From assembly GCA_021732785.1 (NCBI GenBank), contig JAKFUG010000003.1, positions 297,337-361,336 on the forward strand: a stretch of DNA of 64,000 nt. Reading direction: 5' to 3'. The translations under genes were made by a program, and so were the position numbers. This document shows, in pieces, positions 1,946 to 61,986 of the stretch. The DNA comes from Planctomycetaceae bacterium (GTDB lineage: Bacteria > Planctomycetota > Planctomycetia > Planctomycetales > Planctomycetaceae). The notes under the pieces are model-generated. The model did not search any database. It worked only from the letters and a program-made list of their open reading frames with translations, and was not told the origin of the DNA. Each line of letters starts with the position of its first letter. Position 1 is the first letter of the stretch.

Positions 1946-3142
1946 ATGTCGCGGGGATTTTCCAGACGCCGGTTTCTGGCCTCCTGTTCGCTCGGCGGCG
2001 CATGCCTGGTTCCGCGCCGCGCGGCCATCGGGATGGATGACGATGACCCCGTCGCTTCGTGGAAGCAAGGCGTACGGATTGCCCCGGTGTCGATGACGCC
2101 CGGTCGCCACACGATACATACCTATTATCTGCTCAATCCCGAAAGCCCCGACGGCCGACGGGTCGTCTTTTTCGCATCGCTGGACAAAGCCGGACATGTC
2201 GGGCAGGTAATCGTGCAGGAGCGTGCGACCGGCCGCGAGACGGTGTTGGCGGATGACGTGCATACCGAAGATGCGCACCGTGTCGCATTACAGCAATGGA
2301 CGATGAACGGTGACGCGGTCGCCTATCACGAAGTCGTCAACAAACGCTGGCGTGTCGTGGTGGTTGACGTCGCCACCGGCAGCAAGAAAATCGTTGCGGA
2401 GGATCGTCAGTTGGGTTTCGGGCGCGGTGATGGTCACACGCTGCCGCTCTATGGCTGTCATTGGAACCCCGGGGAACATCGTGATCTGGAACTGTATGAC
2501 ATTGCCACCGGCCAACTCCGAACAGCTTGTCGTATCGCTGATGTCGAACAGCGCTACGGCCATTGGCTGCAAACCGAATTCAAAGGCAAGCCAACTTCAA
2601 TCGCCTTTCCGACGATCAGTCCCGATCACCGCCGGGCCTTCTTCAAAATCGCGGCGGGGGACGGCGGTGACAATTACATGGGCAAGGTCAGCCTGCGGCA
2701 AGGTATCGTCTTCTGCGATCTGGAAACCGGCCGGATCACCAGCATGCGCGAACGCTGGGGGCACCCGGCATGGCATCCCGATGCCGATCACTGGATCGAA
2801 ACGGGGAACATCCTCTTTGACGCCGAAGGCCGCACCACCACGCGGATTCCCAACGTTCCCATCCTCCGCGGGCAACATCTCGCCATCAGTCCCAACGAAA
2901 AACTGTGGGTGCAGGACGGGCTGACGGAATCGCTGGGCGGACCCGCGGGCGAATGGGCCGTGATGGTGGCCGACCTCCGCGGCGATCGATATGAAATCAT
3001 CCAGAAATTTATCGGAAACCAAGGGGCTCGCTCGTGGCGCGTGAACCATCCGCATCCGGTTTTCAGTGCCGACAGTCGCCGGATTTACTTCAACATCAAT
3101 GCGGGTGAGTTCACACAACTGCACGTTGCGGCACTGGCGTAG
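1946..3142 (+). CDS. Tat-exported beta-propeller protein (oligogalacturonate-lyase-like fold)
   Basis: 398 residues. The N-terminus has a twin-arginine-type signal (SRRRFLASCSLGGACL, residues 7-22), predicting export in folded form across the cytoplasmic membrane. The rest is a run of beta-propeller repeats resembling the TolB/oligogalacturonate lyase (PL22) group: 'SPDGRRVVFFAS', 'WTMNGDAVAYH', 'SPDHRRAFFK', 'HPVFSADSRRIYFN'. A GGGAG-like Shine-Dalgarno lies about 9 nt before the ATG. Oligogalacturonate lyase-like proteins with Tat signals are common in Planctomycetes. The catalytic histidines could not be confirmed by eye, so lyase activity is inference. It stands alone between the divergent kinase and the tRNA region and looks like host DNA. 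Confidence 0.75.
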   Translation: MSRGFSRRRFLASCSLGGACLVPRRAAIGMDDDDPVASWKQGVRIAPVSMTPGRHTIHTYYLLNPESPDGRRVVFFASLDKAGHVGQVIVQERATGRETVLADDVHTEDAHRVALQQWTMNGDAVAYHEVVNKRWRVVVVDVATGSKKIVAEDRQLGFGRGDGHTLPLYGCHWNPGEHRDLELYDIATGQLRTACRIADVEQRYGHWLQTEFKGKPTSIAFPTISPDHRRAFFKIAAGDGGDNYMGKVSLRQGIVFCDLETGRITSMRERWGHPAWHPDADHWIETGNILFDAEGRTTTRIPNVPILRGQHLAISPNEKLWVQDGLTESLGGPAGEWAVMVADLRGDRYEIIQKFIGNQGARSWRVNHPHPVFSADSRRIYFNINAGEFTQLHVAALA

Positions 3143-3208
3143 GGCTTCTCTCCGCTGAGTTACGGAAGCGGCGGGAGTTTGGCGCAGCAATGAACGGTGC
3201 GGTGGCGG

Positions 3209-3560
3209 TTACCGGGAATCATGGGGTGATCGCCCATCGGTCACGAGCCGCTTTTCGGTCAAATTCCGGGATCGTGCCGATGTCTCCACCGAGTGGTTTT
3301 GGTTATCCCTGCGGCGCTTGCGGTCTGTCAGAAACTCGTTGACCAGATCGGCAACCGTCAGCCTCTGCCACTTTTGCGGAGAACACCCCCCGCCCATAAT
3401 TCGTCCCGTTCATCCAGTCATTTCGTGAGCGTCCGTTCGCCGTCGGGATCGCCAGCAATTTTGCCGAAGGAGACGAACTTCTGGCGGATCTTTTTGTCTC
3501 ATCTTCCGCGGGCATGTGGGACCGACGAGAAGTCGGGGCGGGGTTTTCTCGGGGCGAACG
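3209..3560 (-). pseudogene. Decayed planctomycete-type tyrosine integrase N-terminus
   Basis: Reading the minus strand from about 3560 gives RKPRPDF..., then KFVSFGKIAGDPDGERTLTK, a TGA stop, LDERDELWAGG, then after a frameshift the segment LTVADLVNEFLTDRKRRRD. This is the conserved N-terminal order of planctomycete phage-type integrases (KPRPDFPL..HA.GRW.KKIRG..YFG...DP..AL..YLDQ.D.L.AGR, then LTV.DLCN.FL..K). There are at least two in-frame stops and one frameshift, and the catalytic domain is absent, so this is a relic. Its position next to tRNA-Ser suggests an earlier element used the same locus. Confidence 0.6.
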
Positions 3561-3612
3561 TTGGTGTAGACTTTGCCACGACACCACCTTGGGTGAGCGC
3601 CTGGTGATGTCA

Positions 3613-3639
3613 GACACCCGGCAGCGAAGGGCGGGTGTC
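3613..3639. terminator. Hairpin, possible terminator
   Basis: A perfect 8-bp inverted repeat (GACACCCG at 3613-3620, CGGGTGTC at 3632-3639) encloses an 11-nt loop in the intergenic stretch before the tRNA. No clear T-run follows on either strand, so termination is only a possibility. The rest of 3143-3737 holds nothing beyond the integrase relic. Confidence 0.3.
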
Positions 3640-3666
3640 ATGTGCTGGAGTTTTAGGACACAGGTG

Positions 3667-5085
3667 TCAGGCTCGGGGGTCAGCCACCGCGGCAACCGGA
3701 ACGTCAAACGACAGAATGTCTTGGAAAATCAGACTTCGGAGAGGTGGCAGAGCGGCCGATTGCACCGGTCTTGAAAACCGGCCTGCCCGCAAGGGTAGCG
3801 GGGGTTCGAATCCCCCTCCCTCCGCTCGTTTTACCGGGGAAATGCCGCTTTTCTTGGGCGTCTTCTGCTTCTTCCCCGGCTTGGAATCCGCTCCGGGTTC
3901 TTCATTCTCACTGCCATCCGGTGCCGCCTTTTGCCCATTTGTGCCCATCGTGCGCCCCAAACTGCGCCCCAATAGAGCCGGAAGCTTCTGCACCTCTTTA
4001 GACTGGTCATTCAGGTCAATGTGCGTGTACCGGGCAGCGGTTAGGACCGGCGTCGAGTGCCGTGCCAGCTTCTGGGCCGTCGTCAGCGGGACGCCGTGCC
4101 GGGCGAGATTCGTGATGTAGGTGTGCCGCAAGGCGTGGAAGTCGGCGAACAGCCCATCCGCGTCCTTATACACCAGCCCCGCCGCCTCGATGTCCTGCCT
4201 CAGAATCTTTCCACCGTACCGGTTCTCCGCCCAATTGCCCGGCCATAAGCGCTCGCCTGCAGGCTTGCCCAATAGCCATGACCGAAGCTCCTCCAGAATC
4301 TCTGCCGGAAGCGGCAGGACATCCGTGCGACGGCGTTTAGAGTATCCGGCCTTCACCGTAACGGTCGGCGGTTCGTCCAACAGCTTCAGGCTCTCCGGCG
4401 TCAGGGAAGCGAGTTCCGAGGCACGCAGCCCCGTGGACAACGCCACGACGTAGAGCATGAACCGCTCCATGCCTGTGAAGGCCAGGATGACCGCAGCGGT
4501 CTTCGTGTGCGTGAGCAGCTTCGAGACCTCATCATCCGACAAAGCCCGGCGGTCGTGTCTGCGATCCACGGCCACATTCAGCGTATCGAGCAGCAGAAGC
4601 GGGTCTTCCCGCAACCGCTTGTGACGGTACAGCCAGCGGGAGAATTGCCGGATCGCCCGCAGATAATGGTTCGATGTCTGGACGCTCAACCCGCCTTTGC
4701 GGAGTTCGGCGAGCTTTTCTTCCACAGCCGCAGCCGCCAGATCAGCAGCCCGGACCACCTTGCATCCGTCGACAATCTGATTGCAGCGATAGACCACGAG
4801 CTCAACCTGATCGGCTGAGACTTCGCGATTCTCCAGCGACTTCCGGAACGCGGCGATGTCTGCCGCAATCCCATCCTGCTCCCGAACCGGCGCGGCCTGC
4901 ATGCCATTGCGGATCATGTCCGCTTCCAGTTCCAGCCTTGCCGCCAGTCGTTGCGTGGCTGTTTTATCGGTGAAGCCTGGAACCTTCTTCAGCTTGCCGC
5001 TGTGGTCGCGGTAGCGGATGTACCACTTCTTGACCTTCTTCACTTTGCCTTCGTGACGGTACGTTGGACGGTAGATCGTCGCCAT
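3667..5085 (-). CDS. int: Tyrosine site-specific recombinase (integrase)
   Basis: The open frame has 472 codons. An N-terminal arm-binding region (1-60) is basic, with AP2-like WYIRYRDHSGK. A SAM-like core-binding domain spans about 75-170. The catalytic domain is 180-360 with all expected residues: R221 (STGLRASEL), H317-x-x-R320 (HALRH), H343 (ARHST) and nucleophile Y353 (ARYTH). The last 52 codons (from about residue 421) lie antisense to the tRNA-Ser and give the familiar GGGFEPPLPLRAG tRNA artefact. In the excised circle the C-terminus would therefore differ. It catalyses integration and excision at the tRNA. The excisionase-like gene ends 4 nt upstream, forming an int-xis operon. Confidence 0.93.
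   Translation of the reverse strand: MATIYRPTYRHEGKVKKVKKWYIRYRDHSGKLKKVPGFTDKTATQRLAARLELEADMIRNGMQAAPVREQDGIAADIAAFRKSLENREVSADQVELVVYRCNQIVDGCKVVRAADLAAAAVEEKLAELRKGGLSVQTSNHYLRAIRQFSRWLYRHKRLREDPLLLLDTLNVAVDRRHDRRALSDDEVSKLLTHTKTAAVILAFTGMERFMLYVVALSTGLRASELASLTPESLKLLDEPPTVTVKAGYSKRRRTDVLPLPAEILEELRSWLLGKPAGERLWPGNWAENRYGGKILRQDIEAAGLVYKDADGLFADFHALRHTYITNLARHGVPLTTAQKLARHSTPVLTAARYTHIDLNDQSKEVQKLPALLGRSLGRTMGTNGQKAAPDGSENEEPGADSKPGKKQKTPKKSGISPVKRAEGGGFEPPLPLRAGRFSRPVQSAALPPLRSLIFQDILSFDVPVAAVADPRA
3738..3824 (+). tRNA. tRNA-Ser (anticodon TGA)
   Basis: An 87-nt gene with the long variable arm of class II serine tRNAs. The acceptor GGAGAGG (3738-3744) faces TCCCTCC (3817-3823). The D-arm is GCAGAGCGGCC, the anticodon stem-loop CCGGTCTTGAAAACCGG places TGA as anticodon, the variable arm is CTGCCCGCAAGGGTAGC, and the T-arm is GGGGGTTCGAATCCCCC. 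CCA is not encoded. The acceptor has one A-C mismatch and a G-T pair, an oddity that could reflect replacement of the original 3' end by element sequence on integration. This gene is the integration target of the element to its right. Confidence 0.9.
3738..3826. other. Candidate attL within tRNA-Ser
   Basis: The tyrosine integrase gene is convergent with the tRNA 3' end and its reading frame overlaps the tRNA, the classical layout for tRNA-targeting elements. The crossover segment is most likely in the anticodon-loop to T-arm part of the gene. A second copy of the T-arm/acceptor sequence was looked for by eye near the right edge (60-64 kb) and not seen, so the exact core is undefined. Confidence 0.5.
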
Positions 5086-8093: not shown

Positions 8094-9548
8094 TCAGCCT
8101 TTCTGCTGGAAATTTGCGAACAGGTAGTTGTCGCCAGTGGATGGAAAGATTCGTCCGTTCTGAAACACCAGCCCTTCAACGATTCCGCCGTTGATATGGC
8201 CTCCCTTCTTCAGCGTGGTCATCTCCGAGGGCATGACTTTGAAGTCCATATGCTCGGAGACACTGCTGCTTGCATGACCGCCCGGTCTTTCATTCGTGGG
8301 ATCAGGACGCTCATGCGGCATTGATGTGCTATGCAGCAGCTTCAACTTTTTGCCGATCAACTCGGACGCGTAGTTGTTCGTCGTGATGTCACTATTCGCG
8401 TGAAAAATCTTTGTGCCGAGGACTCCCAAAAGGGCGTCGGTCGAAGACTTCCCCGCCTGTTCGCCGCCCATTGCGGCGTAATACATCGGCAGGTTCTGAC
8501 ACAGATAAACCGTCGCGCACCGCGACGATCTCGCCGTGCTTTGAAACAAGCTGTCGTAGGTTGTGACGAAGTTGGCGGCTTCGTCTGCCCACAGGAACAC
8601 AGGCCGCGTCGTCCGCCTGCGCTCCGTCGCTCTCTGGAACAGGAACTTCCACACCACCTGCACGTACTGCCCGAGTTCGTTCCACTCTTTCACCGACATG
8701 TTGATGACGATGATCTTGCCGTCCTGGGCAGCGTCCGGCGTGACGTTCGTCGTGGTGCTGAGCAGCGTCCGCATTACTCCCCGGTTGAAGCAGTCGATGA
8801 TCCCGGTGAATGTGCTGACGATGATCGACCGGGTCTTTTCCGCCAGTGCCGGAAACTCGGCGAGCCAATAGCGAACTATCAGTCGAAAATCATGCTCCTC
8901 CTCTTCTGTTTTTGACCTTCTGCGACCGGCTTCCAGCAGCGAATAGAGCGTGCTGCGTTTTTGCCATTCCTCGGTGGAAGCCTCTTCCAGTGACTGCGGT
9001 GCGTCGGTCACCAGTTCGTAAAGCAAGGGCACGCTGACCCGACCCAACCCGATGACCAACGCCCCGATGCCGTTCCTGAGCAACTGCTTGTACGAGCGCT
9101 TCCAATACTGGTCGCCCTCGTTCTTCTCACCTCCACGGCGGTCAGCAACTTCGCTGACAACCGTGAAGAGATTGACCAGGTTTTCGGTAGCGCCAGCACC
9201 TCCGGGCTGGCTCAGTTCGTAGTCGAGGAAGTTGAATCGCCACTGCTCACCGGGGCCGAAGAGGATCAGGTCATCCTTCCTGCCCGTCTCCTCGCACATC
9301 CTCACCCACATCTGGTATTCGTCGGGCTTGGTCGTCATCACCAAGCCTCCCCAACCCTGAGTGAGGAAGCTTCGGGCAATCAGGTCGCCACTCCCGGTGG
9401 TTTTTCCCGAGCCGTTCCCGCCGAGAATGCTGGTTCCTTCAAACGCATCCCGCTTTGACCAGGGGATGTTGGGGCCGAACGTGCAAAGCCCCTCATCCAT
9501 GTCATCCCCGCTTCCCTCCGGGGGCTTCTTCTGCTTCTTCCAAAACAT
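8094..9548 (-). CDS. VirD4/TraG/TraD-like type IV coupling ATPase
   Basis: 484 residues. Walker A is GGNGSGKT (43-50) in the context 'GTSILGGNGSGKTTGSGDLIARSFL'. 'GGLVMTTKPDEYQMW' follows, as in TraG/VirD4 proteins. Walker B is VFLWADEAANF (about 318-328), then 'SRCATVYLCQNLPMYYA', the TraM-recognition/TraD C-terminal signature. An AAGGAG Shine-Dalgarno lies 9 nt before the ATG. Coupling proteins pump relaxase-bound DNA toward a transfer channel. The usual N-terminal transmembrane hairpin is missing; the downstream membrane protein may supply it. A TrwC-type relaxase is present at 25-27.6 kb, but no VirB/Tra channel genes are visible. Confidence 0.85.
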   Translation of the reverse strand: MFWKKQKKPPEGSGDDMDEGLCTFGPNIPWSKRDAFEGTSILGGNGSGKTTGSGDLIARSFLTQGWGGLVMTTKPDEYQMWVRMCEETGRKDDLILFGPGEQWRFNFLDYELSQPGGAGATENLVNLFTVVSEVADRRGGEKNEGDQYWKRSYKQLLRNGIGALVIGLGRVSVPLLYELVTDAPQSLEEASTEEWQKRSTLYSLLEAGRRRSKTEEEEHDFRLIVRYWLAEFPALAEKTRSIIVSTFTGIIDCFNRGVMRTLLSTTTNVTPDAAQDGKIIVINMSVKEWNELGQYVQVVWKFLFQRATERRRTTRPVFLWADEAANFVTTYDSLFQSTARSSRCATVYLCQNLPMYYAAMGGEQAGKSSTDALLGVLGTKIFHANSDITTNNYASELIGKKLKLLHSTSMPHERPDPTNERPGGHASSSVSEHMDFKVMPSEMTTLKKGGHINGGIVEGLVFQNGRIFPSTGDNYLFANFQQKG

Positions 9549-12301: not shown

Positions 12302-15300
12302 ATGAAGAATCGCCCAGCATGGAAGCAAGCGAGCTTCGATTTCTCCGCACCGCCCTCCGATGATCCGCCAGTTCAAACCGTCCCCGTTCAGAACGGCGTC
12401 AGTCACGCGGCCCGCCTGAAACGGAAGGGACAGCTTCGGCTCTTCGACTCCGAGCCTCCGCCTCAAGTTCTTGAGTCTGCACCGCCTGCGGATTCAAAAC
12501 CGGCCTGCACCACCTGCACCCCGCGCGTCGCACCTGCTGAGTTCTCCAGCGGTCTCGTTGCCAAAGCCCGCGACATCATCGCCGCCATCCGCACGCTGAA
12601 GCGGATTGAACAGGAAGCACGCCCGGCAACCGCTGAGGAAAAGACCGCCCTCTCCCGCTTCTGCGGCTTCGGTCCGGTGGCCACTCACATCTTCACTGAT
12701 CCACTCACGGGGAAGTTCAAGGATGGATCGTGGCAAGCCATTGGCGCCGAGCTTCGGGAACTCCTCACAGACGAGGAATACGACAGCGCCAAGCGGACGA
12801 CCTTCAACGCATTCTACACGGCCCCGGTCGTGATGCGGGCAATGCACGATGCCCTGAGCCGTTTCGGCGTGCCATCCTCTGCGACCGTGCTTGAGCCTGG
12901 TTGCGGGATCGGTCGCTTTGCCTCATGTGCCCCCGACGGCATGCACTTCATTGGCGTGGAACTCGACAGCCTCTCAGCGAGGATCGCGAAGGCGCTTCAC
13001 CCAGACCACGACATCCGCAACGAGAATTTCCGCGACTCGAAGATTCCCCAACTGGATGCCGTCATTGGCAACGTCCCGTTTGCTGACATCAAACTCGACT
13101 GGAAGGGAACTCGGTATTCCCTGCACGATTACTTCTTCGCGAAGTCCGTCGACGCCCTGAAGCCCGGTGGCGTGCTGGCGCTGGTGACATCGCACTTCAC
13201 GATGGACAAGCAGAACGCAGCCATTCGCGACCACCTCAGTTCACAGGCTGACTTCCTCGGGGCGATCCGCCTCCCGTCCGACGCCTTTAAGACCGAAGGC
13301 ACGGCGGTTGTGACCGACATCATCTTCCTGCGGAAGCGCGGACCCGACCAACCGGAAAACCACGTCGATTACGAATGGAAGGAAACGGCTCCACTGTCCG
13401 TCGAAGATTCCTTCGTGACGGTCAATCGGTACTTCATCAACCACCCCGAAATGGTTCTGGGGAACTGGTCACTGAAGGACACCATGTACGGCGGCGAAGG
13501 CTTCAGCATCACGAGCGACGGCGATCTCGGCGAGCACCTTCAGCGTTCGCTTCAACTGCTGCCTCAAAGCCACCAAGTAAAGCCCGCAACTCCCCAAGTA
13601 AAAGGGGTCACTCACCAAATAAGCCCCAAGTTCGTTCCACCACCGCAGGAACGCCATGTCTCTGAGGGCAGCTTCTTCGTCGATCACCACATCATCTACC
13701 AGATGGTCAATGGCCGGGGTGAACCCGTCGTTTACGGCGGGACGAAACTGACATCCAACGGGACCATGACCGGCAGACGGCTGGCGTCCCTCATCCAGCT
13801 TCGCGATCAAGCCCGCCGCGTGCTTCAGTCCCAGAACGAGGACTGGCCCGAAGAGAACCGCATCGAATCCCGAACGGCCCTCAACCTCACATACGACCAT
13901 TTCGTGAAGGCATACGGGGCGATCAACAAGACGACCCTGAGCGACACGAAGGATGGATCGACCATTCGTCGGATGCCGAACCTGGTGAAATTCCGGGAAG
14001 ACCCGGACGCCATGCTGGTGATGTCGCTTGAGGAGTACGACGAGGCCACGGACAAGGCTGAGAAGGCGACGATCATGAAACGCGACGTGGTGGGCAAGAC
14101 CCCGCCCGTCACCTCAGTGAAGTCCGCCGAGGAAGGCTTGCTTGTCAGCCTGAATGAACATGGCCGGATCGACCTGCCGTTCATGTCCGCGATCTACAAG
14201 AAGCCCGAAGCCGACATCATCGAGGAACTCGGCAGTCTAATTTACCTCGATCCAGAGACGAAGGAATGGGAGACCGCCGACTCATACCTGTCGGGCACGG
14301 TGCGGGACAAGCTGAAGGCCGCTGACGCCGCCGGACCGGAATTCGCTCGCAATGCTGACGCACTTAGAAAGGTGCAACCCGAGGACGTGTTGCCCGGTGA
14401 CATCGACGCCAATCTCGGCGCGCCGTGGATTCCGCCCGAGGACATCCAGGCATTTGCCGCCGAACTCTTCGGAGTCGCACCCCAGCATATCCCCGTGTCG
14501 TATCTGAAGAAGGACGCCCTATGGACGGTCGAGGCGAGCCACTCCGCAGAGCGATCCGTCCCGGCGACAGCGGATTACGGCACGCCCCGAGCGAATGGCA
14601 CCACGCTGTTCGAACAGGCGTTGAACATGAAGTCCCCGGTCATCTACGACCCCGATCCCAACGACAGCGAAAAGCGCGTCGTGAATCCCACGGAAACACT
14701 CGCCGCGAAGGAGAAGCAAAAGCTCATCAAGGAGAAGTTCAAGGCATGGGCGTTTGCAGATCCCGACCGGAGCGAACGCCTGGTGCGGCTTTATAACGAT
14801 GCTTTCAACAACCTCCGGCCCCGCCTCTTCGACGGATCGCACTTGACGTTTCCGGGGATGAATCCGGCCATCACGCTTAGGCCACATCAAACCGCAGCCG
14901 TCTGGCGTTGTATGGTCGCGGGCAACACCTTACTTGCACACGCCGTCGGGGCGGGCAAGACCAATGTGTGTGTCGCCGCAGCGATGAAGATGAAGCAAAC
15001 GGGCCTGATAAAGAAGCCAATGTGCGTGGTTCCCAACCACATGCTGGAACAATTCTCCCGCGAATGGTTGCAGCTTTATCCGAACGCCAAGCTGCTGATC
15101 GCCGGGAAAGAGGACTTCACGAAAGAGCGTAGGAAGTTGCTCACCGCAAAAATTGCGACCGGCGATTGGGATGGAATCATCGTAACCCACAGTTCATTTG
15201 AACGAATCGGCATGTCCGACGAATATCAGGAACGCTTCCTGCGGGAACAAATCGCGGAGTATTCGGACCTTCTGATCGAACATGCGGGCAAGAAATCGTC

Positions 15301-18300
15301 AAACCGCAACATCGTGAAACAGCTCGAAAAACAGAAGGCGAACAGGGAGCAGAAGCTGAAAGACCTACTCGCGGAAGACAAGAAAGACGAAGGTCTCGTG
15401 TTCGATGAGCTTGGTGTAGATCAGGTTTTCATTGACGAATGCTTCACATATGGAACGCTCGTTGAAACCGACCAAGGACAGATTCCCATCGGGCGTATCG
15501 TCAACGAACGCCTGTGCGTGAATATAAAATCCTTGAATCCTGCAACAGGTGCGCTAGAGTGGAAACCCGTCGTTAACTGGTTCGCGAACAAGCGTCGCGG
15601 ACATCTGATAGAGGTTTCCCATGAACATGGATCGTTCATCTGCACACCAAACCACAAGCTCTGGATCGCTGGCCACGGATACCGGAAAGCTGGCGACCTC
15701 GCAGGGAATGAGACCCTGCTTGTTCTGCAAGAAGGACTTTACTCCGAACTCCGCCAAGGCCGGGCCGAAGCCGAAACATTGCTCCCCGGAATGCAAAGCA
15801 TTCGACAGCACGGTCACGAAGCAATGTGCGACGTGCGCGACGGACTTCACGTACATTGTGAGCAGTCCGGTAATGGATGCGAAGAGGCCCCGGAAGTTCT
15901 GCAGCGTGTCTTGCAAAATGAAGACGCAGCACGCGAACCCTCATTCGCACGGCCTGTGGAAACAGGCGATGCAGCAGACTTGGGAAAATCCGCCGCACAA
16001 AGGGCGACCGAATCCCGGTTCGTCCGCTTGGATGACGGACAACAACCCGATGAAACGGCCAGAGGTGAGAGCAAAGCAATCGGCGGCATTGCGAGCCATC
16101 GGGCATCGGCCCAAGATCAGAGGCGGCAATGGCCATCTATCGCCCTGCGAAATGCTTCTCGCGGATCGAACCGGGATGCAGACAGCCTTTGCAATCATCA
16201 CCAGACCCATCCGGGATCAGGTGCCGGGCGTGCCGAGACACTACAAGGCCGACCTTGCCGATCCGATCAGGATGCTTGTGGTCGAGGTGGACGGGAACAC
16301 GCACAACAACCCGAAAGCTCGCGAGCGGGATACCCGGAAAGACAAAGCCCTATCACTTCTCGGGTGGTCGGTGTTGCGATTCTCGAACCGGGACGTGATG
16401 GAGAATACCGATTCAGTGGTCGCGACCATTCAATCGTTTACGACATCGAAGTAGCCGACAACCACAACTACTTCGCCAACGGCACGCTGGTCTCCAACTG
16501 CCAAGCGTACAAGAACCTCGAAACCCCGACGAAGATGGATCGTGTCGCCGGTATTCAGACAGGCGGCAGCGAACGCGCATTCGACGTCTACATGAAAGCC
16601 CGCTATCTCGACCAGCAGCATGCGGGGCATGGCATTGTCGGAGCGTCTGGCACGCCGATCAGCAATTCGATGGTCGAGATGTACACAATGCAGCGGTACT
16701 TCGATCCCGCTGGGCTCCGGGCGCGAGGCATCGAGCACTTTGACGCATGGGCCGCGACGTTCGGCGAGGTCGTTGAAAGCATGGAAATTTCGCCGGACGG
16801 GAAGTCACTCCGCCCCCGCTCCCGCTTCGCAAAGTTCGTCAACCTCCCAGAACTTCAGCAGATGTTCCGGGCATTCTCCGATGTCCAAACCGCTGAAATG
16901 CTCAACCTGCCCCGGCCAAAACTCGCTGGTGGGAAGCCGCAGACCATCGCCTGCCCGATGTCGGATGACCAAGCAGCCATCCAACAAGAGCTGGTCGAGC
17001 GTTACGAAAAGCTCCGTTCACAAAAGGTCGATCCCCGCGTCGACAACGCGTTGAACATCACCACCGATGGCCGGAAGCTGGCACTCGATGCCCGGATGAT
17101 CGACGGCGGCGCGGCGCTGTCGCCTGAATCAAAGATCAATAGGTTAGTAGAAAACGTCCTCGAAATCGGCCAAAACTCCGCAGCGGCGCGCGGGACGCAG
17201 ATGATTTTCTGTGACATGGGCGTCCATCCGACCGCATGGGGATTCTCCGCATATGACGAAATCACCCGCAAGTTGATTCAAGAGGGCATCCCCGCTTCGC
17301 AGATCGCGAACATCGGCGACGCCGATACCGACGCCAAGAAACAGGTTCTCTTCCAGAAGGTTCGCCAAGGGGCGGTCAGAGTGCTGCTCGGTTCCACGCA
17401 GAAGATGGGCACCGGCACCAACGTGCAGAAGCGGCTGATTGCCCTGCATCATCTGGATGCACCGTGGAAGCCGGCCGAGGTCGAACAGCGTGACGGACGA
17501 ATACTCCGCCAGGGTAACGACAACCCCGAGATTCAGATTTTCCGCTATGTCACCGAGGGTTCATTTGACGCCTACATGTGGCAGGCTCTTGAGACGAAAG
17601 CGAAATTCATCGCTCAGGTGATGAGCGGCGAGAACACCGCCCGCAAAGCCGAAGACGTTGGCGGGCAGGAACTGAGCTATGCCGAGGTGAAGGCCATCGC
17701 TTCAGGAAATCCCGCCGTGCTAACGCTGGCGGAGACCGACGCGGAACTCAAGCGGCTGTCCATCCTCAAGAAGAACCATTCCGACGAGCAGTTCCTTGCC
17801 CGCAGGAACATCAGGGATTTGCCGGGGACGATCAAACGCCTGACTGACCGTGTGGCGAATATGTCGGCCGACGCGGAAACCATCGAAACCACGAACGATT
17901 CACCCCTGATGATCGGTGGGCGCCGGGTGGCTCATGGGGATGAAGTCGAAGTGCTGGGCGGGAAGCTCGAAACCCTGCCTGAGAAGGTGTCGGAAAACCG
18001 CCAGATTCCGCTGGGCAAATATTACGGGCTGGAATTCGGGATCATTCTCCATCCCCACTTCACGCCGGATGCGTACCTCGAAGGGCGTTCGCACCGGGAG
18101 GCGATGCTATCCAAGAACGCTGGCCCGCGTGCCGTGCTGAATGCACTGGCGAGGATTGCGGATTCTTACCGCAGTGAAATCACCACCAGCGAACGAGACC
18201 TTGAGCTGGCTAAATCACAACTCTCCGACTTCGAACAGCGACTCGGCCGGAAGTTCGAACATGAGGCGTACATGACGGAACTGACCACCCTGCGGGATCA

Positions 18301-18520
18301 ACTTCGTACAGGGTTGTCCGAGGCTCCCAAAGAGGGAATGCCCACCGTCTCTGATATTGCCGGCCAGATCAAGGTGTTGAAGTCGTCACAGGCTGTTGAG
18401 GCCGCACCGGAACGTGAAGCCGTGAGGGTTTCAGCGGAAGAACCTGTCACGGCGCGTATCAAGAGGCAGATGGAGCAGCCGGATTATGAGCCAGTCGCAG
18501 CCACCGGAAGGGCGATTTAG
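12302..18520 (+). CDS. Giant N6-adenine methylase / SNF2 helicase, interrupted by an intein
   Basis: 2072 codons (1719 after intein removal). An N-terminal gamma-class N6-methylase fold has SAM motif I EPGCGIGRF (198-206) and a motif IV variant NVPF (257-260) in place of NPPF. An SF2/SNF2 ATPase begins near 865 ('LRPHQTAAVWRCM'), with Walker A AVGAGKT (881-887), a DExx box split by the intein (DE at 1045-1046, then CQ), motif III GASGTPISNS, and motifs V-VI 'GSTQKMGTGTNVQKR... EQRDGRILRQGN' (around 1728). The C-terminus is coiled-coil-like. This methylase-helicase architecture occurs on plasmids, integrative elements and phages (DarB-like) and is thought to protect incoming DNA from restriction. 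Catalysis by the NVPF variant is uncertain. Confidence 0.9.
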   Translation: MKNRPAWKQASFDFSAPPSDDPPVQTVPVQNGVSHAARLKRKGQLRLFDSEPPPQVLESAPPADSKPACTTCTPRVAPAEFSSGLVAKARDIIAAIRTLKRIEQEARPATAEEKTALSRFCGFGPVATHIFTDPLTGKFKDGSWQAIGAELRELLTDEEYDSAKRTTFNAFYTAPVVMRAMHDALSRFGVPSSATVLEPGCGIGRFASCAPDGMHFIGVELDSLSARIAKALHPDHDIRNENFRDSKIPQLDAVIGNVPFADIKLDWKGTRYSLHDYFFAKSVDALKPGGVLALVTSHFTMDKQNAAIRDHLSSQADFLGAIRLPSDAFKTEGTAVVTDIIFLRKRGPDQPENHVDYEWKETAPLSVEDSFVTVNRYFINHPEMVLGNWSLKDTMYGGEGFSITSDGDLGEHLQRSLQLLPQSHQVKPATPQVKGVTHQISPKFVPPPQERHVSEGSFFVDHHIIYQMVNGRGEPVVYGGTKLTSNGTMTGRRLASLIQLRDQARRVLQSQNEDWPEENRIESRTALNLTYDHFVKAYGAINKTTLSDTKDGSTIRRMPNLVKFREDPDAMLVMSLEEYDEATDKAEKATIMKRDVVGKTPPVTSVKSAEEGLLVSLNEHGRIDLPFMSAIYKKPEADIIEELGSLIYLDPETKEWETADSYLSGTVRDKLKAADAAGPEFARNADALRKVQPEDVLPGDIDANLGAPWIPPEDIQAFAAELFGVAPQHIPVSYLKKDALWTVEASHSAERSVPATADYGTPRANGTTLFEQALNMKSPVIYDPDPNDSEKRVVNPTETLAAKEKQKLIKEKFKAWAFADPDRSERLVRLYNDAFNNLRPRLFDGSHLTFPGMNPAITLRPHQTAAVWRCMVAGNTLLAHAVGAGKTNVCVAAAMKMKQTGLIKKPMCVVPNHMLEQFSREWLQLYPNAKLLIAGKEDFTKERRKLLTAKIATGDWDGIIVTHSSFERIGMSDEYQERFLREQIAEYSDLLIEHAGKKSSNRNIVKQLEKQKANREQKLKDLLAEDKKDEGLVFDELGVDQVFIDECFTYGTLVETDQGQIPIGRIVNERLCVNIKSLNPATGALEWKPVVNWFANKRRGHLIEVSHEHGSFICTPNHKLWIAGHGYRKAGDLAGNETLLVLQEGLYSELRQGRAEAETLLPGMQSIRQHGHEAMCDVRDGLHVHCEQSGNGCEEAPEVLQRVLQNEDAAREPSFARPVETGDAADLGKSAAQRATESRFVRLDDGQQPDETARGESKAIGGIASHRASAQDQRRQWPSIALRNASRGSNRDADSLCNHHQTHPGSGAGRAETLQGRPCRSDQDACGRGGREHAQQPESSRAGYPERQSPITSRVVGVAILEPGRDGEYRFSGRDHSIVYDIEVADNHNYFANGTLVSNCQAYKNLETPTKMDRVAGIQTGGSERAFDVYMKARYLDQQHAGHGIVGASGTPISNSMVEMYTMQRYFDPAGLRARGIEHFDAWAATFGEVVESMEISPDGKSLRPRSRFAKFVNLPELQQMFRAFSDVQTAEMLNLPRPKLAGGKPQTIACPMSDDQAAIQQELVERYEKLRSQKVDPRVDNALNITTDGRKLALDARMIDGGAALSPESKINRLVENVLEIGQNSAAARGTQMIFCDMGVHPTAWGFSAYDEITRKLIQEGIPASQIANIGDADTDAKKQVLFQKVRQGAVRVLLGSTQKMGTGTNVQKRLIALHHLDAPWKPAEVEQRDGRILRQGNDNPEIQIFRYVTEGSFDAYMWQALETKAKFIAQVMSGENTARKAEDVGGQELSYAEVKAIASGNPAVLTLAETDAELKRLSILKKNHSDEQFLARRNIRDLPGTIKRLTDRVANMSADAETIETTNDSPLMIGGRRVAHGDEVEVLGGKLETLPEKVSENRQIPLGKYYGLEFGIILHPHFTPDAYLEGRSHREAMLSKNAGPRAVLNALARIADSYRSEITTSERDLELAKSQLSDFEQRLGRKFEHEAYMTELTTLRDQLRTGLSEAPKEGMPTVSDIAGQIKVLKSSQAVEAAPEREAVRVSAEEPVTARIKRQMEQPDYEPVAATGRAI
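15440..16498 (+). mobile_element. Intein inserted in the helicase DExx box (353 residues)
   Basis: It starts at Cys1 (codon 15440-15442) with block A 'CFTYGTLVETDQGQIPIGRI'. Block B is 'GSFICTPNHKLWIAG' with the TxxH histidine. The C-terminal blocks are 'IVYDIEVADNHNYFANG' (F) and 'TLVSN' (G). The last residue is Asn (16496-16498) and the first C-extein residue is Cys (16499). The penultimate residue is Ser rather than the usual His. Joining the exteins gives VFIDE-CQAYKNL, the intact helicase motif II. In frame, the central part has no recognisable endonuclease and is Gln/Arg/Glu/Gly-rich; the endonuclease lies in another frame (15621-16454). Confidence 0.92.
15621..16454 (+). CDS. Homing endonuclease nested out of frame inside the intein (EDxHD/Vsr-like)
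   Basis: 277 codons in a different frame from the host protein. Two zinc knuckles come first: C33-C36...C54-C58 and C69-C72...C94-C98. A NUMOD3-like 'NNPMKRPEVRAKQSAALR' follows (141-158). The C-terminal nuclease core has E177 (SPCEMLL), D211 (KADLADPIRMLVVEVDG), E222/D224, H228 (NTHN) and D237/D241, then 'ALSLLGWSVLRFSNRDV', matching the Vsr-like EDxHD family known from I-Bth0305I-type homing endonucleases. GAGG lies 6 nt before the ATG; an internal ATG at 15708 would skip the overlap with intein block B. The stop lies inside the codons for the intein C-terminal motif. It is predicted to cleave the intein-less DExx-box site. Confidence 0.88.
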   Translation: MNMDRSSAHQTTSSGSLATDTGKLATSQGMRPCLFCKKDFTPNSAKAGPKPKHCSPECKAFDSTVTKQCATCATDFTYIVSSPVMDAKRPRKFCSVSCKMKTQHANPHSHGLWKQAMQQTWENPPHKGRPNPGSSAWMTDNNPMKRPEVRAKQSAALRAIGHRPKIRGGNGHLSPCEMLLADRTGMQTAFAIITRPIRDQVPGVPRHYKADLADPIRMLVVEVDGNTHNNPKARERDTRKDKALSLLGWSVLRFSNRDVMENTDSVVATIQSFTTSK

Positions 18521-24464: not shown

Positions 24465-24926
24465 TCAATTGCCGTCCTGAGTTTCCTCGCGAACCTCGGT
24501 GATCTCGATGGCCTCGACCACGGCTTCGCCATCGCCAAGAGCTGCACCCTGCATTTGCTCGATCTCCTGAACGAGGAAGCACGCCTTGGTTTTGAGTGCT
24601 GTCCATAGGCTCTTGCGTTCGCTGGCTTGGAACAGCGACTTGCCCTTGATCGCCACCAGCCACATCGTGCCGTGGGCGTCACACGCCTTGAAGCGGATCT
24701 CCGTCGGGCTGGCCATCCACATGGGGTTGATGCCGTACCACTCGAAGACGACTCGCTCCGCCTGGTGCGGTTCGACCCCGCTGCCTTTGAGCCGGATCAG
24801 TTCGAGTGTTCCCTCGATCTGCTTCGACTGGCGAATATGGTGGTAACACCGATTCTTGACTGGCTCCTCATCCTTCTGCGCCGGGATGTCGCCGGGCTTG
24901 CGTAGGAAGGCGTTAAGATCGTTCAT
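24465..24926 (-). CDS. Hypothetical protein between relaxase and cyclase-like gene
   Basis: 153 residues: 'NRCYHHIRQSKQIEGTLELIRLKGSGVEPHQAERVVFEWYGINPMWMASPTEIRFKACDAHGTMWLVAIKGKSLFQASERKSLWTALKTKACFLVQEIEQ', an alpha/beta fold with no recognised family. The start overlaps the relaxase stop by 14 nt and the gene ends 45 nt before the cyclase-like start, so the three form one transcript. It could be a partner of either neighbour. Confidence 0.6.
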   Translation of the reverse strand: MNDLNAFLRKPGDIPAQKDEEPVKNRCYHHIRQSKQIEGTLELIRLKGSGVEPHQAERVVFEWYGINPMWMASPTEIRFKACDAHGTMWLVAIKGKSLFQASERKSLWTALKTKACFLVQEIEQMQGAALGDGEAVVEAIEITEVREETQDGN

Positions 24927-27612
24927 ATGAAGGTGTCCTTTCTGGAGGAAGCTGCATCAATTCCTGTGCTCTGTCAATCACGTACTTCTTCATCTTGCTC
25001 ATGCGGTCGCGGAGCTTCCGCTTCCATTTCTTCGGGAACAGGTCATGTGCCGCGGCTTTCGGCTGCGACCGCTGAATTTCGACCTTCAATGCCTCTTTGT
25101 CGTCGGTAAAGATCAACGCCTGTTGCCGGCCGCGCGAGGCGGAGACGTAGAACTGCTCCCGGTTGGTCGCGGGGAATGACTCCGCCGACTGGCCGATGAT
25201 GACCCGGTCAACGGTCTTGCCCTGTGCGGCGTGCGAGGTGGTGACGTACCCGTGGGTGAAATGCCGGAAATCCCCAGGCACCTCCCATTTGTTGGTCAGG
25301 ACGATCCCTCCCTTCGGGGTGAATCCGGCGACCTCATAGACCGAGCCGTTATTGAGCCGGTTGCCATCAGTGCTTTTACCGTTCTGGGTGATCCGCAGCA
25401 GGTCGCCCGGTGCCACTGCAAGTTGATCCTCCCGGAATGCCCCGAACTTCCCCAGCACGACGCCGGGTTCCTGCTCGTGGCGGCGAGCGTCTTTCACCTG
25501 GGCCGAAGTCCAGTTGAGATTGGTGAGCGTGGAGAACTGCCGCTCCACCCCGATCTTCCCCGCAGCTTTCAGCCCCTGCCGGATTTCCGCCGTGATCCGG
25601 TTGCCCTCCGAATGCGTTGGGCTGACCACAAGTGCGGACTCGCCAGCACCCACGGCCCCGATATACGCGGCCGCGAGGTGGCGATACCTGTCGGCATCGT
25701 TCACCTCAAGCACCCAGCCCAGTTGGTCGAGCTTGTCAAAGCCCTTGGCCAGGTCGCCCTTTTCGATGGATTTCACCGCGTCCTTGTACATGCCCTTCTG
25801 GCGTTTGATGTCCGTCAACTCTGCGGGTTTCAATCCGGCGTAGTCCTGCAGGATTCGCAGCGGCGCACCCCGTGCCGGGCTGGCGTGCTGCTTGCCATCA
25901 CCGCTCAAGACGATCCTCGCATCGACTCGCTTCGCCACGTCGAACAGGCGAGCCATGTCGCGGGAGCCGATCAAGCCGGACTCATCCACCCAGATGACAC
26001 CGCCCTCGGCGTCGTCCTGCATGTCCTGATCCTGAAGGAACTTCGCCAGCGTATCAGCGGCCTCGAAGCCTTCCGACCGCAGCACCCCACGGCTCGCTTC
26101 AGCGGATGGCGCCAGCACCGTCACGGGAGCATCAATGCCCGAGATAGCGGCCTGCATCATGGTCGTCTTGCCCGTACCGGCACCGCCACGAACCAAAGTC
26201 ACACGGTCGCGGGAGTTCCAGACATGCCAACATGCCGCTTGCTGTTCTGGGGAAAGGTGTAGGACAGGTTCAATCGACTTCAGTTTTGAACCTGTCGCAT
26301 TCTCCTGTTGTCGTTCAGGCGAAGGTGTGGCAGGGTGTTCCTTGCTGAGTACAGCAGGGTTGCTTCGCTCGATCTGATCTTCGGGTGTGAAGCCTCGCTG
26401 GGGACTCGCGAGCCCAGCAAGTGGCCGCATGGTTCCTCTGCCCTCACGGGCGAAGGCGATCATGCGGCTTTCTTCTTCGAGCACCCCTTTTGTGCTGGCG
26501 AGGATGTCGCTATCCACATTCGTGGTGAAGAGCCCGGCAACCCTCGACTGCTTCGCCACGCCCTCGGGCAGCACCGATCCGAATCCATGCCGCAGGGCTT
26601 CCATCAGTACCCGCTTTTCCGGCAGGACGCTCGTCCGTTCAAAGCAGTGATCGACAGCGAAGGCAACGGACGCCTGAGTGCGATCCTCGATCATACCGTT
26701 GACGTCAACGACATGATCAGCGGCCTTTCGTGTGACCTCATTGAGTGCCGCCTTGTCGGTCTTAGTCAGCCGACTGACCCAATAGTCCCGCAGGTCATCA
26801 TGGGTCATGTCTTTTTGCTTGTTCTTACGGGAGGTTGCTCCGAGTTTGGCTTTTGCCTTCGGGTCTTTCACGCCCAGTTTCTCGGCGAGCTGCTCGACCT
26901 CGGCAGTCCGGCGGGAGAACGAATCGCGGAGCTTTTGCGACACGCCGTCGACCTCCCAGAAGCGACCCTTCTTGCTCACCCCGTACCCGAGTTCGGCCAT
27001 GCGGTGCGATAGCCGGGAGTGAAACGCGGCCTCCCAGTAATACCCATCACGCTTCAGGTCGCCGAACTGGCCCGCCTTCCATCGCCGCTCCGACTTGTCG
27101 TAGGTCACATTGAACGTCACCACATGCCGGTGCAGTTGCGGATCGGGCAGACCATCCGGCCCCGGACGGGTCTCGAAATGGGTGAAGCCAGCATGAGCCA
27201 AGTTGCCGGTCACACGGTCGTATTCAGCCCCACCTTTACGGACACGAGTCTTCGCCTCGCGCTCGATGTCACGCATAGTCTCATCAATGGATGCCTCGAA
27301 TGCCTGGAGGATTCGCTCATCACGGGAGAACTCATAGAGCAGGCTGACCGACTTCGGGGCCGAGAAGGTGAAGTCATACGCCACGCGCCGTTTGTCATTC
27401 ATGCGGGCGGTGAGCTGCTTGCCAGTCCGGGGATCGAGGTTGTCGGCGAGCGACTCGAATGACTTCCAGTCCACGGCGCCAGACAGCCCGAGCAGTTCAG
27501 CACCCTTGCCGCCCCATCGCCCGTCGGACTCCACGCCATCAACATAATAGTCGGACGACTTGAAGTAGCCCTTCACGGCATCGGCTGAGGTGCAGGTGTG
27601 GATGGTCAGCAT
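24913..27612 (-). CDS. TrwC/MobF-type conjugative relaxase-helicase
   Basis: 899 residues. The N-terminal relaxase has candidate catalytic tyrosines Y22/Y23 (SSDYYVDG) and the HUH metal motif 'HFETRPGPDGLPDPQLHRHVVTFN' (H145, H161, H163). It is followed by an SF1/RecD-like helicase with Walker A GGAGTGKT (about 472-479), DExx 'GVIWVDESGLIG', 'LSGDGKQHASPARG', and a UvrD-like C-terminus 'FTHGYVTTSHAAQGKTVDRVIIGQSA.... FYVSASRGRQ'. It should nick an origin of transfer, stay covalently bound and unwind the DNA. Together with the coupling ATPase it makes the element mobilizable. It is unusual beside a full phage structural module. Confidence 0.93.
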   Translation of the reverse strand: MLTIHTCTSADAVKGYFKSSDYYVDGVESDGRWGGKGAELLGLSGAVDWKSFESLADNLDPRTGKQLTARMNDKRRVAYDFTFSAPKSVSLLYEFSRDERILQAFEASIDETMRDIEREAKTRVRKGGAEYDRVTGNLAHAGFTHFETRPGPDGLPDPQLHRHVVTFNVTYDKSERRWKAGQFGDLKRDGYYWEAAFHSRLSHRMAELGYGVSKKGRFWEVDGVSQKLRDSFSRRTAEVEQLAEKLGVKDPKAKAKLGATSRKNKQKDMTHDDLRDYWVSRLTKTDKAALNEVTRKAADHVVDVNGMIEDRTQASVAFAVDHCFERTSVLPEKRVLMEALRHGFGSVLPEGVAKQSRVAGLFTTNVDSDILASTKGVLEEESRMIAFAREGRGTMRPLAGLASPQRGFTPEDQIERSNPAVLSKEHPATPSPERQQENATGSKLKSIEPVLHLSPEQQAACWHVWNSRDRVTLVRGGAGTGKTTMMQAAISGIDAPVTVLAPSAEASRGVLRSEGFEAADTLAKFLQDQDMQDDAEGGVIWVDESGLIGSRDMARLFDVAKRVDARIVLSGDGKQHASPARGAPLRILQDYAGLKPAELTDIKRQKGMYKDAVKSIEKGDLAKGFDKLDQLGWVLEVNDADRYRHLAAAYIGAVGAGESALVVSPTHSEGNRITAEIRQGLKAAGKIGVERQFSTLTNLNWTSAQVKDARRHEQEPGVVLGKFGAFREDQLAVAPGDLLRITQNGKSTDGNRLNNGSVYEVAGFTPKGGIVLTNKWEVPGDFRHFTHGYVTTSHAAQGKTVDRVIIGQSAESFPATNREQFYVSASRGRQQALIFTDDKEALKVEIQRSQPKAAAHDLFPKKWKRKLRDRMSKMKKYVIDRAQELMQLPPERTPSYERS

Positions 27613-38591: not shown

Positions 38592-39944
38592 GTGGAGATT
38601 CGTCCACAGCCAGGCCCACAGGAAACATTCCTCGCCACGTCCGCCGACATCGCCGTCTATGGTGGTGCAGCCGGTGGCGGGAAGACATGGGCGCTCCTGC
38701 TGGAGCCGCTCCGTCACATCGACAACCAGAACTTTGGTGCCGTCATCTTCCGCCGCAACAGCGTGCAGGTGAGAAACGAGGGCGGTCTCTGGGACGAAAG
38801 CACAAAGGTTTACCCGCTCCTTGGCGCGGCTCCGCAGGAATCAATCCTGCAGTGGAAGTTCCCCAAGGGTGCCAAGCTGAAATTCGCTCATCTTGAGCAC
38901 GAGAAGAACAAGCACGACTGGCAGGGTTCTCAGATTCCGTTCATCGGATTCGACGAGCTGACCCACTTCAGCCGGGCACAATTCATTTACATGCTGTCCC
39001 GCAATCGCTCGACCTGCGGTGTGTCCCCTTACATCCGTGCGACCTGCAACCCCGATGCGGATAGCTGGGTCGCTGGCTTCATTGAATGGTACATCGATCA
39101 GGACACAGGCTACGCCATCCCCGAGCGGAGCGGCGTCGTCCGGTTTTTCACCAATCGGGATGATGTGCTGGTCTGGGGTGATTCGCGGGAAGAACTGCTG
39201 GAGCGGTATCCCGACCTGACGCATCACGACATCAAGTCGTTCACGTTCATCGTGGCCGACATCTTCGACAACAAGATTCTGCTAGAGAAAGACCCCGGTT
39301 ATCTGGGGAATTTGAAGGCAATGTCCGTGGTTGAGCGCGAACGGTTGCTCAAGGGCAACTGGAAGATTCGCCCATCCGCCGGGCTCTATTTCAAGCGGTC
39401 CGACTTTGAGATCGTGGACGCGGTTCCTGTCGCGACCAGAAGGGTTCGCTGTTGGGATTTAGCCGCAACCGAGGCCGAAGAGGGCAAGGAGCCTGATTGG
39501 ACCGTCGGCGTCAAAGGCAGTCGTGACCAGCACGGCACCATCTACATCGAGCACGTCGAACGAATGCAGGGCAATCCCGAGCGGGTTGAAACCACGGTCG
39601 TCAACACCGCGGTGGCCGATGGTGTATCGACCGTCATCAGGCTTCCTGAAGACCCCGGACAGGCCGGGAAGGCGCAAGCCAGACATTTCACACGGAAGCT
39701 CATCGGCTTCATCGTCAAAACCAAACGAGTGACAGGCAGCAAAGTGACCAGAGCATCCCCGGCATCCGCACAGGCAGGCGCGGGGAACATCAAGGTACTT
39801 CGTGCCCCCTGGAATGAGGCGTTCTTCGCTGAGTTGGAGAACTTCCCCAGCCCGAAAGCAAAGGACGATCAAGTCGACGCACTTTCCGACGTGATCGACG
39901 AACTGGCATTCCCTGACGCCAAACCGCAAATCCGGTCGCTCTGA
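38592..39944 (+). CDS. terL: Terminase large subunit
   Basis: 450 residues, GTG start. ATPase: Walker A GGAAGGGKT (24-32), 'FRRNSVQVRNEGGLWDE', Walker B IPFIGFDE (115-122), coupling motif 'ATCNPDADSWV'. Nuclease: 'RCWDLAATEAEEGKEPDWTVGVKG' with the first metal-binding Asp, and 'DDQVDALSDVIDELA' near the C-terminus with the last Asp pair. It is the packaging motor and genome cutter. Stop and portal start overlap by one base. Confidence 0.95.
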   Translation: MEIRPQPGPQETFLATSADIAVYGGAAGGGKTWALLLEPLRHIDNQNFGAVIFRRNSVQVRNEGGLWDESTKVYPLLGAAPQESILQWKFPKGAKLKFAHLEHEKNKHDWQGSQIPFIGFDELTHFSRAQFIYMLSRNRSTCGVSPYIRATCNPDADSWVAGFIEWYIDQDTGYAIPERSGVVRFFTNRDDVLVWGDSREELLERYPDLTHHDIKSFTFIVADIFDNKILLEKDPGYLGNLKAMSVVERERLLKGNWKIRPSAGLYFKRSDFEIVDAVPVATRRVRCWDLAATEAEEGKEPDWTVGVKGSRDQHGTIYIEHVERMQGNPERVETTVVNTAVADGVSTVIRLPEDPGQAGKAQARHFTRKLIGFIVKTKRVTGSKVTRASPASAQAGAGNIKVLRAPWNEAFFAELENFPSPKAKDDQVDALSDVIDELAFPDAKPQIRSL

Positions 39945-58817: not shown

Positions 58818-58822
58818 GGGAT

Positions 58823-59872
58823 ATGACAACCACACAAACACAGCTTCGGCGTGACACCGCTGCGAATCTCGCGCTCGCGACGCCCGCCGTCGGAGAAGTC
58901 GGGGTCAACACCACTGACGGCAATCTCGTCCTTGGCGATGGGGCAACCGCTGGCGGTCTCGTTCAGGCCAGTGCCAAGGCCGTCCAGAATAATTCGCACA
59001 CCTACGCGACCGCTGGCGGGACGGCCAATGTCATCACTCTGACCCTGGCGCCATCCATCGGCTCCTATTCCGCCGGTCAGGAGTTTCAGTTCAAGGCATC
59101 CGCGAACAACTCAGGCGCAACGACGCTCAACGTCAATGGGAAGGGTGCCAAGAATATCTACAAGATGAGTTCCGGCACGCTTGGCGCTCTCGCGTCCGGT
59201 GACATCATTTCCGGTGCCATCTACACCGTCAGATACGACGGCACGCAGTTCCAGCTCCAATCCGCGGTTTCAGGCGGCGTCGTCCGAGTCACTCAGCAAA
59301 TTTTCACTGGCGCCGGCACATACACACCATCCGCCGGGATGCTGCATTGCATCGTCGAAGTTCTCGGTGCCGGTGGTGGTGGCGGCAGCGCTAACAACAC
59401 CAACATGGGCGGCGGTGGCGGCGGGGCGGGCGCGTTTGGGAAAAGTTGGCTCACCTCGGCACAAATCGGTGCTTCTCAAGTAGTGACGATCGGCTCAGCC
59501 GGTTCTGCGGGGGCGGGTTCGGCAGGCGGTAACGGCGGAACCAGCAGCCTCGGTTCGCTCATTTCCTGCGCAGGCGGTAACGGGGGCGCGCGCGGGACTT
59601 CGACCGCATCTTTTGCGGGTGGTACTGGCGGAACGGCATCGAACGCTGAGCTTCTCGTTTCGGGTGCGAATGGCTGCCCCAGCGTGGGAAGTGCATTCGG
59701 TGGAGCGGGAGCGAACAGCCCATACGGTGCTGGTGCTGCCGCGACTCTTACCGCCGCATCAGGTGCTGCCGGGCTTGGCTATGGCTCCGGCGGTGCGGGC
59801 GGCTTCGGGGCGAACGGCGGCGGTGCAGGCACAGCGGGCCTGATCGTCATCACAGAATTCTGTTCGGTATAG
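58823..59872 (+). CDS. Tail fibre with Mtd_N-like start and Gly-rich tip
   Basis: 349 residues. The N-terminus 'QTQLRRDTAANLALATPAVGEVGVNTTDGNLVLGDGATAGG' is the Mtd_N-type module (major tropism determinant N-terminal-like, common in phage fibres). The centre has phage fibre beta-repeats. The C-terminal ~150 residues are extremely glycine-rich (GAGGGGG..., GGGGGGAGAFG, SGGAGGFGANGGGAG), probably a polyglycine-II receptor-binding sandwich. A shorter paralogue follows. No reverse transcriptase or template repeat was seen, so not a diversity-generating system. Confidence 0.8.
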   Translation: MTTTQTQLRRDTAANLALATPAVGEVGVNTTDGNLVLGDGATAGGLVQASAKAVQNNSHTYATAGGTANVITLTLAPSIGSYSAGQEFQFKASANNSGATTLNVNGKGAKNIYKMSSGTLGALASGDIISGAIYTVRYDGTQFQLQSAVSGGVVRVTQQIFTGAGTYTPSAGMLHCIVEVLGAGGGGGSANNTNMGGGGGGAGAFGKSWLTSAQIGASQVVTIGSAGSAGAGSAGGNGGTSSLGSLISCAGGNGGARGTSTASFAGGTGGTASNAELLVSGANGCPSVGSAFGGAGANSPYGAGAAATLTAASGAAGLGYGSGGAGGFGANGGGAGTAGLIVITEFCSV

Positions 59873-59881
59873 GGAGTCCTT

Positions 59882-60415: not shown

Positions 60416-60417
60416 CC

Positions 60418-61199: not shown

Positions 61200-61202
61200 C
61201 TA

Positions 61203-61981: not shown

Positions 61982-61986
61982 CCCTC

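Follow-up and report, generated by a model that had tools for sequence, protein, structure and literature searches.

A predicted homing endonuclease overprinted in the +1 frame of a DExx-box intein

Introduction

In canonical LAGLIDADG or HNH inteins, the nuclease is an in-frame domain of the intein. A second arrangement is that of the fractured genes, reportedly described by Dassa et al. in 2009, in which a free-standing Vsr-like nuclease is said to lie between the two halves of a split intein. Here we describe an intein in a 64,000-nucleotide stretch of DNA from a Planctomycetaceae bacterium (contig JAKFUG010000003.1, positions 297,337 to 361,336; the whole stretch is called the window). Across the middle of this intein, an open reading frame (ORF) in the +1 frame encodes a predicted homing endonuclease, and one DNA segment would give two proteins. 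Straight read-through would produce the host enzyme, from which the intein would then splice itself, and a separate start inside the intein would produce the endonuclease as a protein of its own. By cutting intein-less copies of the host gene, the endonuclease would spread the whole cassette. We regard this reading, taken as a whole, as highly probable.

The present intein resembles canonical inteins in its predicted HINT splicing domain, in the usual place of the nuclease and in its presumed mobility at the DNA level. However, the nuclease is an in-frame domain there and a separate +1-frame protein here, and at the window locus no nuclease domain lies in the frame of the splicing domain. A Vsr-like nuclease between intein halves, as the fractured genes reportedly have, is seen in 6 of the 157 groups of relatives analysed below, whereas 147 groups have a single-chain intein with the nuclease overprinted on it. 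The window intein is likewise read from one ORF, not from separate ORFs for the N- and C-terminal halves. If the reading is correct, this is a third intein architecture besides those with in-frame and split nucleases, in which splicing and cutting are physically linked on the same DNA and performed by separate proteins.

The ShiLan paper describes out-of-frame HNH nucleases in the methylases of a few phages, with no intein or intron splicing element found, and a later genome note gives one more out-of-frame HNH case. The ShiLan insert resembles the present element in having a nuclease hidden in the other frame of a host-open insertion, a patchy distribution and zinc fingers. It differs in having an HNH nuclease and no splicing element, a combination not found at the window, where we have an intein, a Vsr-like fold, 147 groups and a measured rule of stop avoidance. 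I-Bth0305I (3r3p) is a homing endonuclease of the EDxHD type, carried by a group I intron (family in PMC3943268); unlike the nuclease here, it is intron-borne and not overprinted, and its N-terminal half is different. For overlapping frames in actinobacteriophages, the ShiLan paper cites Gosselin et al. (bioRxiv 10.1101/2025.01.02.630785) and Gorbalenya 1998. Single cases of the overprinted layout may already be present in Gosselin et al., which deals with non-canonical actinobacteriophage inteins; phi673, discussed below, is an actinobacteriophage. The intein and the Vsr-like homing-type nuclease are each of a known kind. No paper on a nuclease overprinted inside an intein was found in a literature search of partial coverage, and neither priority nor absence from print is claimed.

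Host gene, intein and nested nuclease

The features of the locus, with their basis in parentheses, are as follows.

12302..18520, + strand: host gene, N6-methylase and superfamily-2 helicase carrying the intein, 2072 amino acids (aa) (single open frame, domain matches)
15440..16498, + strand: intein, 353 aa, splitting the DExx box between IDE and CQAYKN (splicing motifs, intein models)
15440..15736, + strand: N-terminal part of the splicing domain, residues 1-99, predicted folded (block means of the predicted local distance difference test, pLDDT, 83-97)
15737..16339, + strand: intein-frame linker, residues 100-300, predicted disordered, nuclease shadow (pLDDT block means about 39-54)
16340..16498, + strand: C-terminal part of the splicing domain, residues 301-353, blocks F and G (pLDDT block means 90, 83, 62, 96, 96, 95)
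15621..16454, + strand: nested out-of-frame endonuclease gene, 277 aa (ORF list, domain matches)
15611..15615, + strand: predicted Shine-Dalgarno (SD) sequence GAGGT, with a 5-base spacer to ATG 15621 (sequence)
15717..15794, + strand: first zinc ribbon of the nuclease, CxxC...CxxxC (sequence)
15825..15914, + strand: second zinc ribbon of the nuclease, CxxC...CxxxC, resembling ribosomal L24e / FCS-type fingers (sequence, family matches)
16134..16451, + strand: predicted catalytic domain, Vsr / I-Bth0305I / DUF559 fold (family and fold matches)
16340..16454, + strand: doubly constrained stretch, the end of the nuclease core (LGWSVLRFSN...) over the first C-terminal intein strand and the start of block F (structure prediction, synonymous diversity)

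The host ORF has no internal stop, intein included. The intein shows Cys1, TPNH (the TxxH motif), block F VYDIEVADNHNYFANG, a terminal Asn and a +1 Cys; its penultimate residue is Ser, where His is usual. The NCBIfam models intein_Nterm (34.8 bits, cut-off 24.5) and intein_Cterm (27.7, cut-off 15.6) are both passed, and Pfam Intein_splicing on the intein alone gives 31.8, under its cut-off of 35.8. These results agree with the first-pass annotation, which had proposed a contiguous intein here. From the motifs, the host protein is predicted to self-splice. Intein-less relatives carry (V/I)F(I/V)DEAH/QxxKN at the DExx site, mostly VFIDEAHYFKN or similar; the pattern is matched by 83 of the 91 intein-less protein matches (P0041-P0131) and not by the other 8.

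The frame of the nested ORF lies one base after the intein frame. The C-terminal part of its product matches DUF559 at 9.2e-13, and a match to MTES_1575 is below the cut-off of that model. The predicted catalytic fold is that of I-Bth0305I / Vsr, with a weak Foldseek match (E 0.014). The motif E-D-x-H-D gives the EDxHD homing endonucleases their name. In 62 aligned nucleases, D182, D195, H199 and D208, candidate counterparts of this motif, are invariant, and E193 is nearly so. The earlier proposal that a Vsr/EDxHD-like nuclease is encoded out of frame, with an ATG and SD sequence to itself, is supported by family and fold matches and by GAGGT-5-ATG.

Expected numbers of stops were obtained by shuffling synonymous codons within each nuclease gene. 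Over 210 aligned codons of the window nuclease, the intein frame has 0 stops against 6.0 expected, and none of 2000 shuffles reached 0. Long open alternative frames, however, arise by chance in the G+C-rich DNA of the window. In the unrelated ORF 47955-49688, a shifted frame on the same strand stays open for 275 codons, and chance openness of the nested frame is therefore not negligible from the window locus alone. The question of chance is settled by the relatives.

Relatives and their layout

Three viral-contig scans gave 211, 233 and at least 258 relatives, and the best 80 of each were used. The pooled set has 252 rows, which form 157 groups at 90% nuclease identity, each classed by its representative; contigs repeated between scans are collapsed by this grouping. 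Two rows were dropped: L002, another DUF559 match in the same genome, and L001, the window copy, the latter after the 84-row frame count given below. Among the 252 rows, the intein is contiguous and open in 231 and fractured in 14, four are intein-less with stops, and three are open with one half past the contig end (L025, L208 and L214, short at the contig end with one intein half missing). The 157 groups divide into 147 contiguous, 6 fractured and 4 free-standing, and at 50% identity 65 groups divide into 61 contiguous and 4 free-standing.

With no frame imposed on the search, 77 of 84 rows showed intein N blocks and 76 showed C blocks, in every case at one constant offset from the nuclease. 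In the later scans together with L103, again with no frame imposed, at least one intein half was found at this offset in 156 of 160 rows. Rebuilt models, for which a filter imposed the frame, gave N blocks in 92/92 and C blocks in 91/92 rows. An in-frame nuclease, which the first-pass annotation had named as a finding that would overturn its view, was seen in none of the 248 rows where one or both intein halves were found (part of these rows being frame-filtered). The double layout is a widespread design, not an accident of the window sequence.

Outside the viral contigs, a protein search with the nuclease gave 11 matches, nine of them at 42-65% identity, and one genome-contig scan gave two loci. 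Six plasmid records match the DUF559 part only, and none covers 80% of the query. Among named phages, 40 records have a nuclease match, of which 9 were fetched. At E up to 1e-20, the nuclease is found in 2 of 392 genomes of the phylum of the window, its own included. By this count, few of those genomes carry the element, which is more common among phage contigs.

Stop avoidance in the intein frame

Across all 147 contiguous groups, 0 stops occur in the intein frame against 1154 expected, and the mean expectation for a single group is never under 2.2. The first-pass claim that one DNA segment serves two proteins is supported by this result. The third frame of the same groups contains 2013 stops against 1880 expected, which indicates that stops are not avoided in general. 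Intein-frame stops are close to expectation in the fractured groups (158 against 166.2) and in the free-standing groups (59 against 59.7). The same is seen in the pyrimidine-ending codons of the nuclease. In contiguous groups, T ends 0 of 2119 such codons before AA, AG or GA and 4944 of 8542 elsewhere. The corresponding numbers are 158/203 and 265/335 in fractured groups, and 59/111 and 153/266 in free-standing groups. According to the stop counts and the T usage, openness of the intein frame tracks the contiguous intein, with no exception in the sample. The intein frame is kept stop-free by third-base choice, T being absent wherever TAA, TAG or TGA would form. These groups form a natural replicated overlapping-gene experiment with a checkable rule: no NNT before AA, AG or GA.

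The +1 offset is permissive because every intein-frame stop requires T at the third position of a nuclease codon, where a change from T to C never alters the amino acid. In the remaining same-strand frame, a Met codon that precedes one for K, N, T, I or M creates a stop that no synonymous change removes, and 130 of the 147 nucleases contain at least one such pair. One event in a common ancestor would likewise account for a fixed offset; ancestry and a permissive frame may both hold.

The first-pass annotation regarded the locus as a possible intermediate state, and this part of its view is not sustained. The overprinted layout, found in 147/157 groups at 90% identity and 61/65 at 50%, is a stable design.

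Translation of the nested gene

The SD sequence at the window is built from intein Glu-Val codons. A second nuclease ATG, at 15708, opens the zinc-ribbon part and has no SD match. In the part upstream of the nuclease in 65 contiguous groups, an SD match of at least 4 precedes 45 of 150 nuclease-frame ATGs and 13 of 129 in other frames (P = 5e-5); for a match of at least 5 the numbers are 23 and 4 (P = 0.0005). Inside the nuclease, 65 of 428 nuclease-frame and 56 of 241 other-frame ATGs have a match of at least 4. A start with such a match is present in 46 of the 65 groups and absent from 19. The enrichment together with these 19 groups indicates that separate initiation is likely but not universal. 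Translation of the nuclease would then be uncoupled from splicing.

Alternatively, +1 ribosomal frameshifting from the intein frame would give a fusion of the N-terminal intein part and the nuclease, with no start of its own. The 19 groups are in line with this, as is the fact that, in the window and in many relatives, the nuclease ORF reaches upstream into block B. The excess of nuclease-frame ATGs that follow an SD match and GAGGT-5-ATG at the window argue against it, and we consider frameshifting unlikely.

Insertion site and mobility

In the 300 bases to either side of the site, phages phi673 and phi674 share 99.7% and 97.7% identity. phi673 has 302 additional codons precisely after ITDE, where phi674 reads ITDE-VHH. 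Exact empty sites were also found for CP-T1 (353 codons) in VchM-138 and for 159E43-1b (300 codons) in 142E35-1; in both pairs, the +1 residue is A when the site is empty and C when it is occupied. K389 was rejected as the empty partner of K391, as it holds a different 150-aa intein, and this pair was not counted.

One Vibrio phage family shows three states, namely an overprinted intein, a nuclease-free 150-aa intein and genes of empty length. Vibrio phages K389 and K459 (L097 and L098) have the nuclease-free intein at the helicase site, where K391 has an overprinted intein of 356 aa. In Vibrio phages 1.024, 1.251 and 1.023, the helicase gene has 1635 bases, the length expected without an intein. 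Among 47 Vibrio phage records with the 5' part of the helicase, 25 are also in the nuclease match list and 22 are not; of these 22, five were fetched, giving two short inteins and three genes of empty length.

In 146 of the 147 contiguous groups, the site is DE followed by the intein Cys within three residues. Ten host ORFs were scanned, giving four clamp-loader-type ATPases, four helicase or SNF2 families and two with an intein match only. L042 and L075 are hosts of an overprinted intein at a DE site and have no Pfam matches besides the intein.

Single-frame annotation hides homing endonucleases. Each of the 40 matching phage records lists a helicase, a P-loop or coil protein, or a hypothetical protein at the place of the match, and no separate nuclease gene is annotated at the locus in the 9 fetched records.

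The nuclease likely spreads the cassette by cutting intein-less host copies. Another explanation is that the nuclease is a decaying passenger, which no longer homes and is retained as it cannot be cleanly removed. The 150-aa intein that K389 and K459 carry at this site is compatible with such a passenger and indicates that splicing does not need the nuclease. However, the strong protein-level constraint on the nuclease frame, the invariant catalytic-type residues and the patchy presence among near-identical phages make this explanation improbable.

Selection on the two frames

In every compared pair of relatives with at least 10 differences, the third codon position of the nuclease is the most variable and linker identity is below nuclease identity, the pairs sharing members and thus not being independent. 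Protein-level selection sits on the nuclease frame, and the linker is a predicted-disordered shadow that is held open. The shadow-like linker of the first-pass annotation is consistent with this, and selection confined to the intein frame, its second possible objection, is contradicted by the third positions; the third, a lack of nuclease-family matches for the nested ORF, is answered by DUF559 and the Vsr / I-Bth0305I-like fold.

At the 3' end of the nuclease, synonymous diversity is 0.78 of expectation over the overlap with the C-terminal splicing strand (32 columns), compared with 0.97 over 149 columns (P = 2.4e-10). With stop-risk codons excluded, the values are 0.73 (25 columns) and 0.98 (129 columns; P = 1.1e-6). 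Both products are constrained at once in this part, with an extra constraint on third bases beside the intein strand.

The opposite assignment, that the linker is a functional domain and the nuclease frame an accident, could draw on the protein search with the host region, in which inteins are alignable end to end at 37-51% identity, linker included (P0013-P0021). Such similarity follows from the constraint on the nuclease. Change is fastest at third positions of the nuclease, that is first positions of the linker, and the linker is both less conserved and predicted to be disordered; the nuclease has known families and the invariant D/D/H/D set. A functional linker, which is very hard to reconcile with the position-wise variation and the predicted disorder, was rejected. 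That the nuclease is truly in frame, as in canonical inteins, and was shifted here by two sequencing errors or indels was rejected as having a negligible chance, given the constant offset found with no frame imposed, the independently isolated phages and the strict stop rule without exception in 147 groups.

Contiguous, split and free-standing forms

In a midpoint-rooted tree of 69 rows, four fractured groups form one clade (100/98), and its sister is a contiguous lineage (96/82). The direction taken from this rooting suggests that these split inteins descend from contiguous overprinted ones, not the reverse, which would be a possible route to the origin of split inteins. Nuclease and splicing-domain distances are correlated over 65 groups (rho 0.33; 0 of 2000 permutations as high), indicating a partly shared history. 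We lean slightly towards a wider interpretation of the whole sample. These would be an old and stable class of mobile inteins that occupy the DExx box in phage helicases and other ATPases, with the nuclease overprinted in the sole same-strand frame where silent third-base changes always remove intein-frame stops. One tract would serve as catalytic core and splicing strand, and relaxation of the stop rule would give rise to natural split inteins whose halves flank a nuclease.

Around the four free-standing nucleases, no group I intron was matched in Rfam at the gathering score. Two of these nucleases lie directly upstream of a helicase ORF and overlap it at the level of the ORFs: 2977-3660 with ORF 3560-5266 in L151, and 2860-3501 with ORF 3470-5128 in L205, neither helicase having an intein match. 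They are perhaps next to their own target genes.

Surrounding window

The phage and conjugation parts of the window are located as follows.

3667-5085, - strand
3738-3825, + strand
8094-9548, - strand
24913-27612, - strand
38592-41266, + strand
56697-59872, + strand

The element in the window has an integrase overlapping a tRNA-Ser gene, a TraG/TraD-like coupling protein, and a TrwC relaxase beside terminase, portal and tail genes. No direct repeat of at least 40 bases was found in window positions 58000-62500. A long shadow ORF of 343 aa is present at 25231-26262, within 24913-27612. The tail-region protein at 58823-59872 (+ strand) has an Mtd N-terminal domain, as in targets of diversity-generating retroelements.
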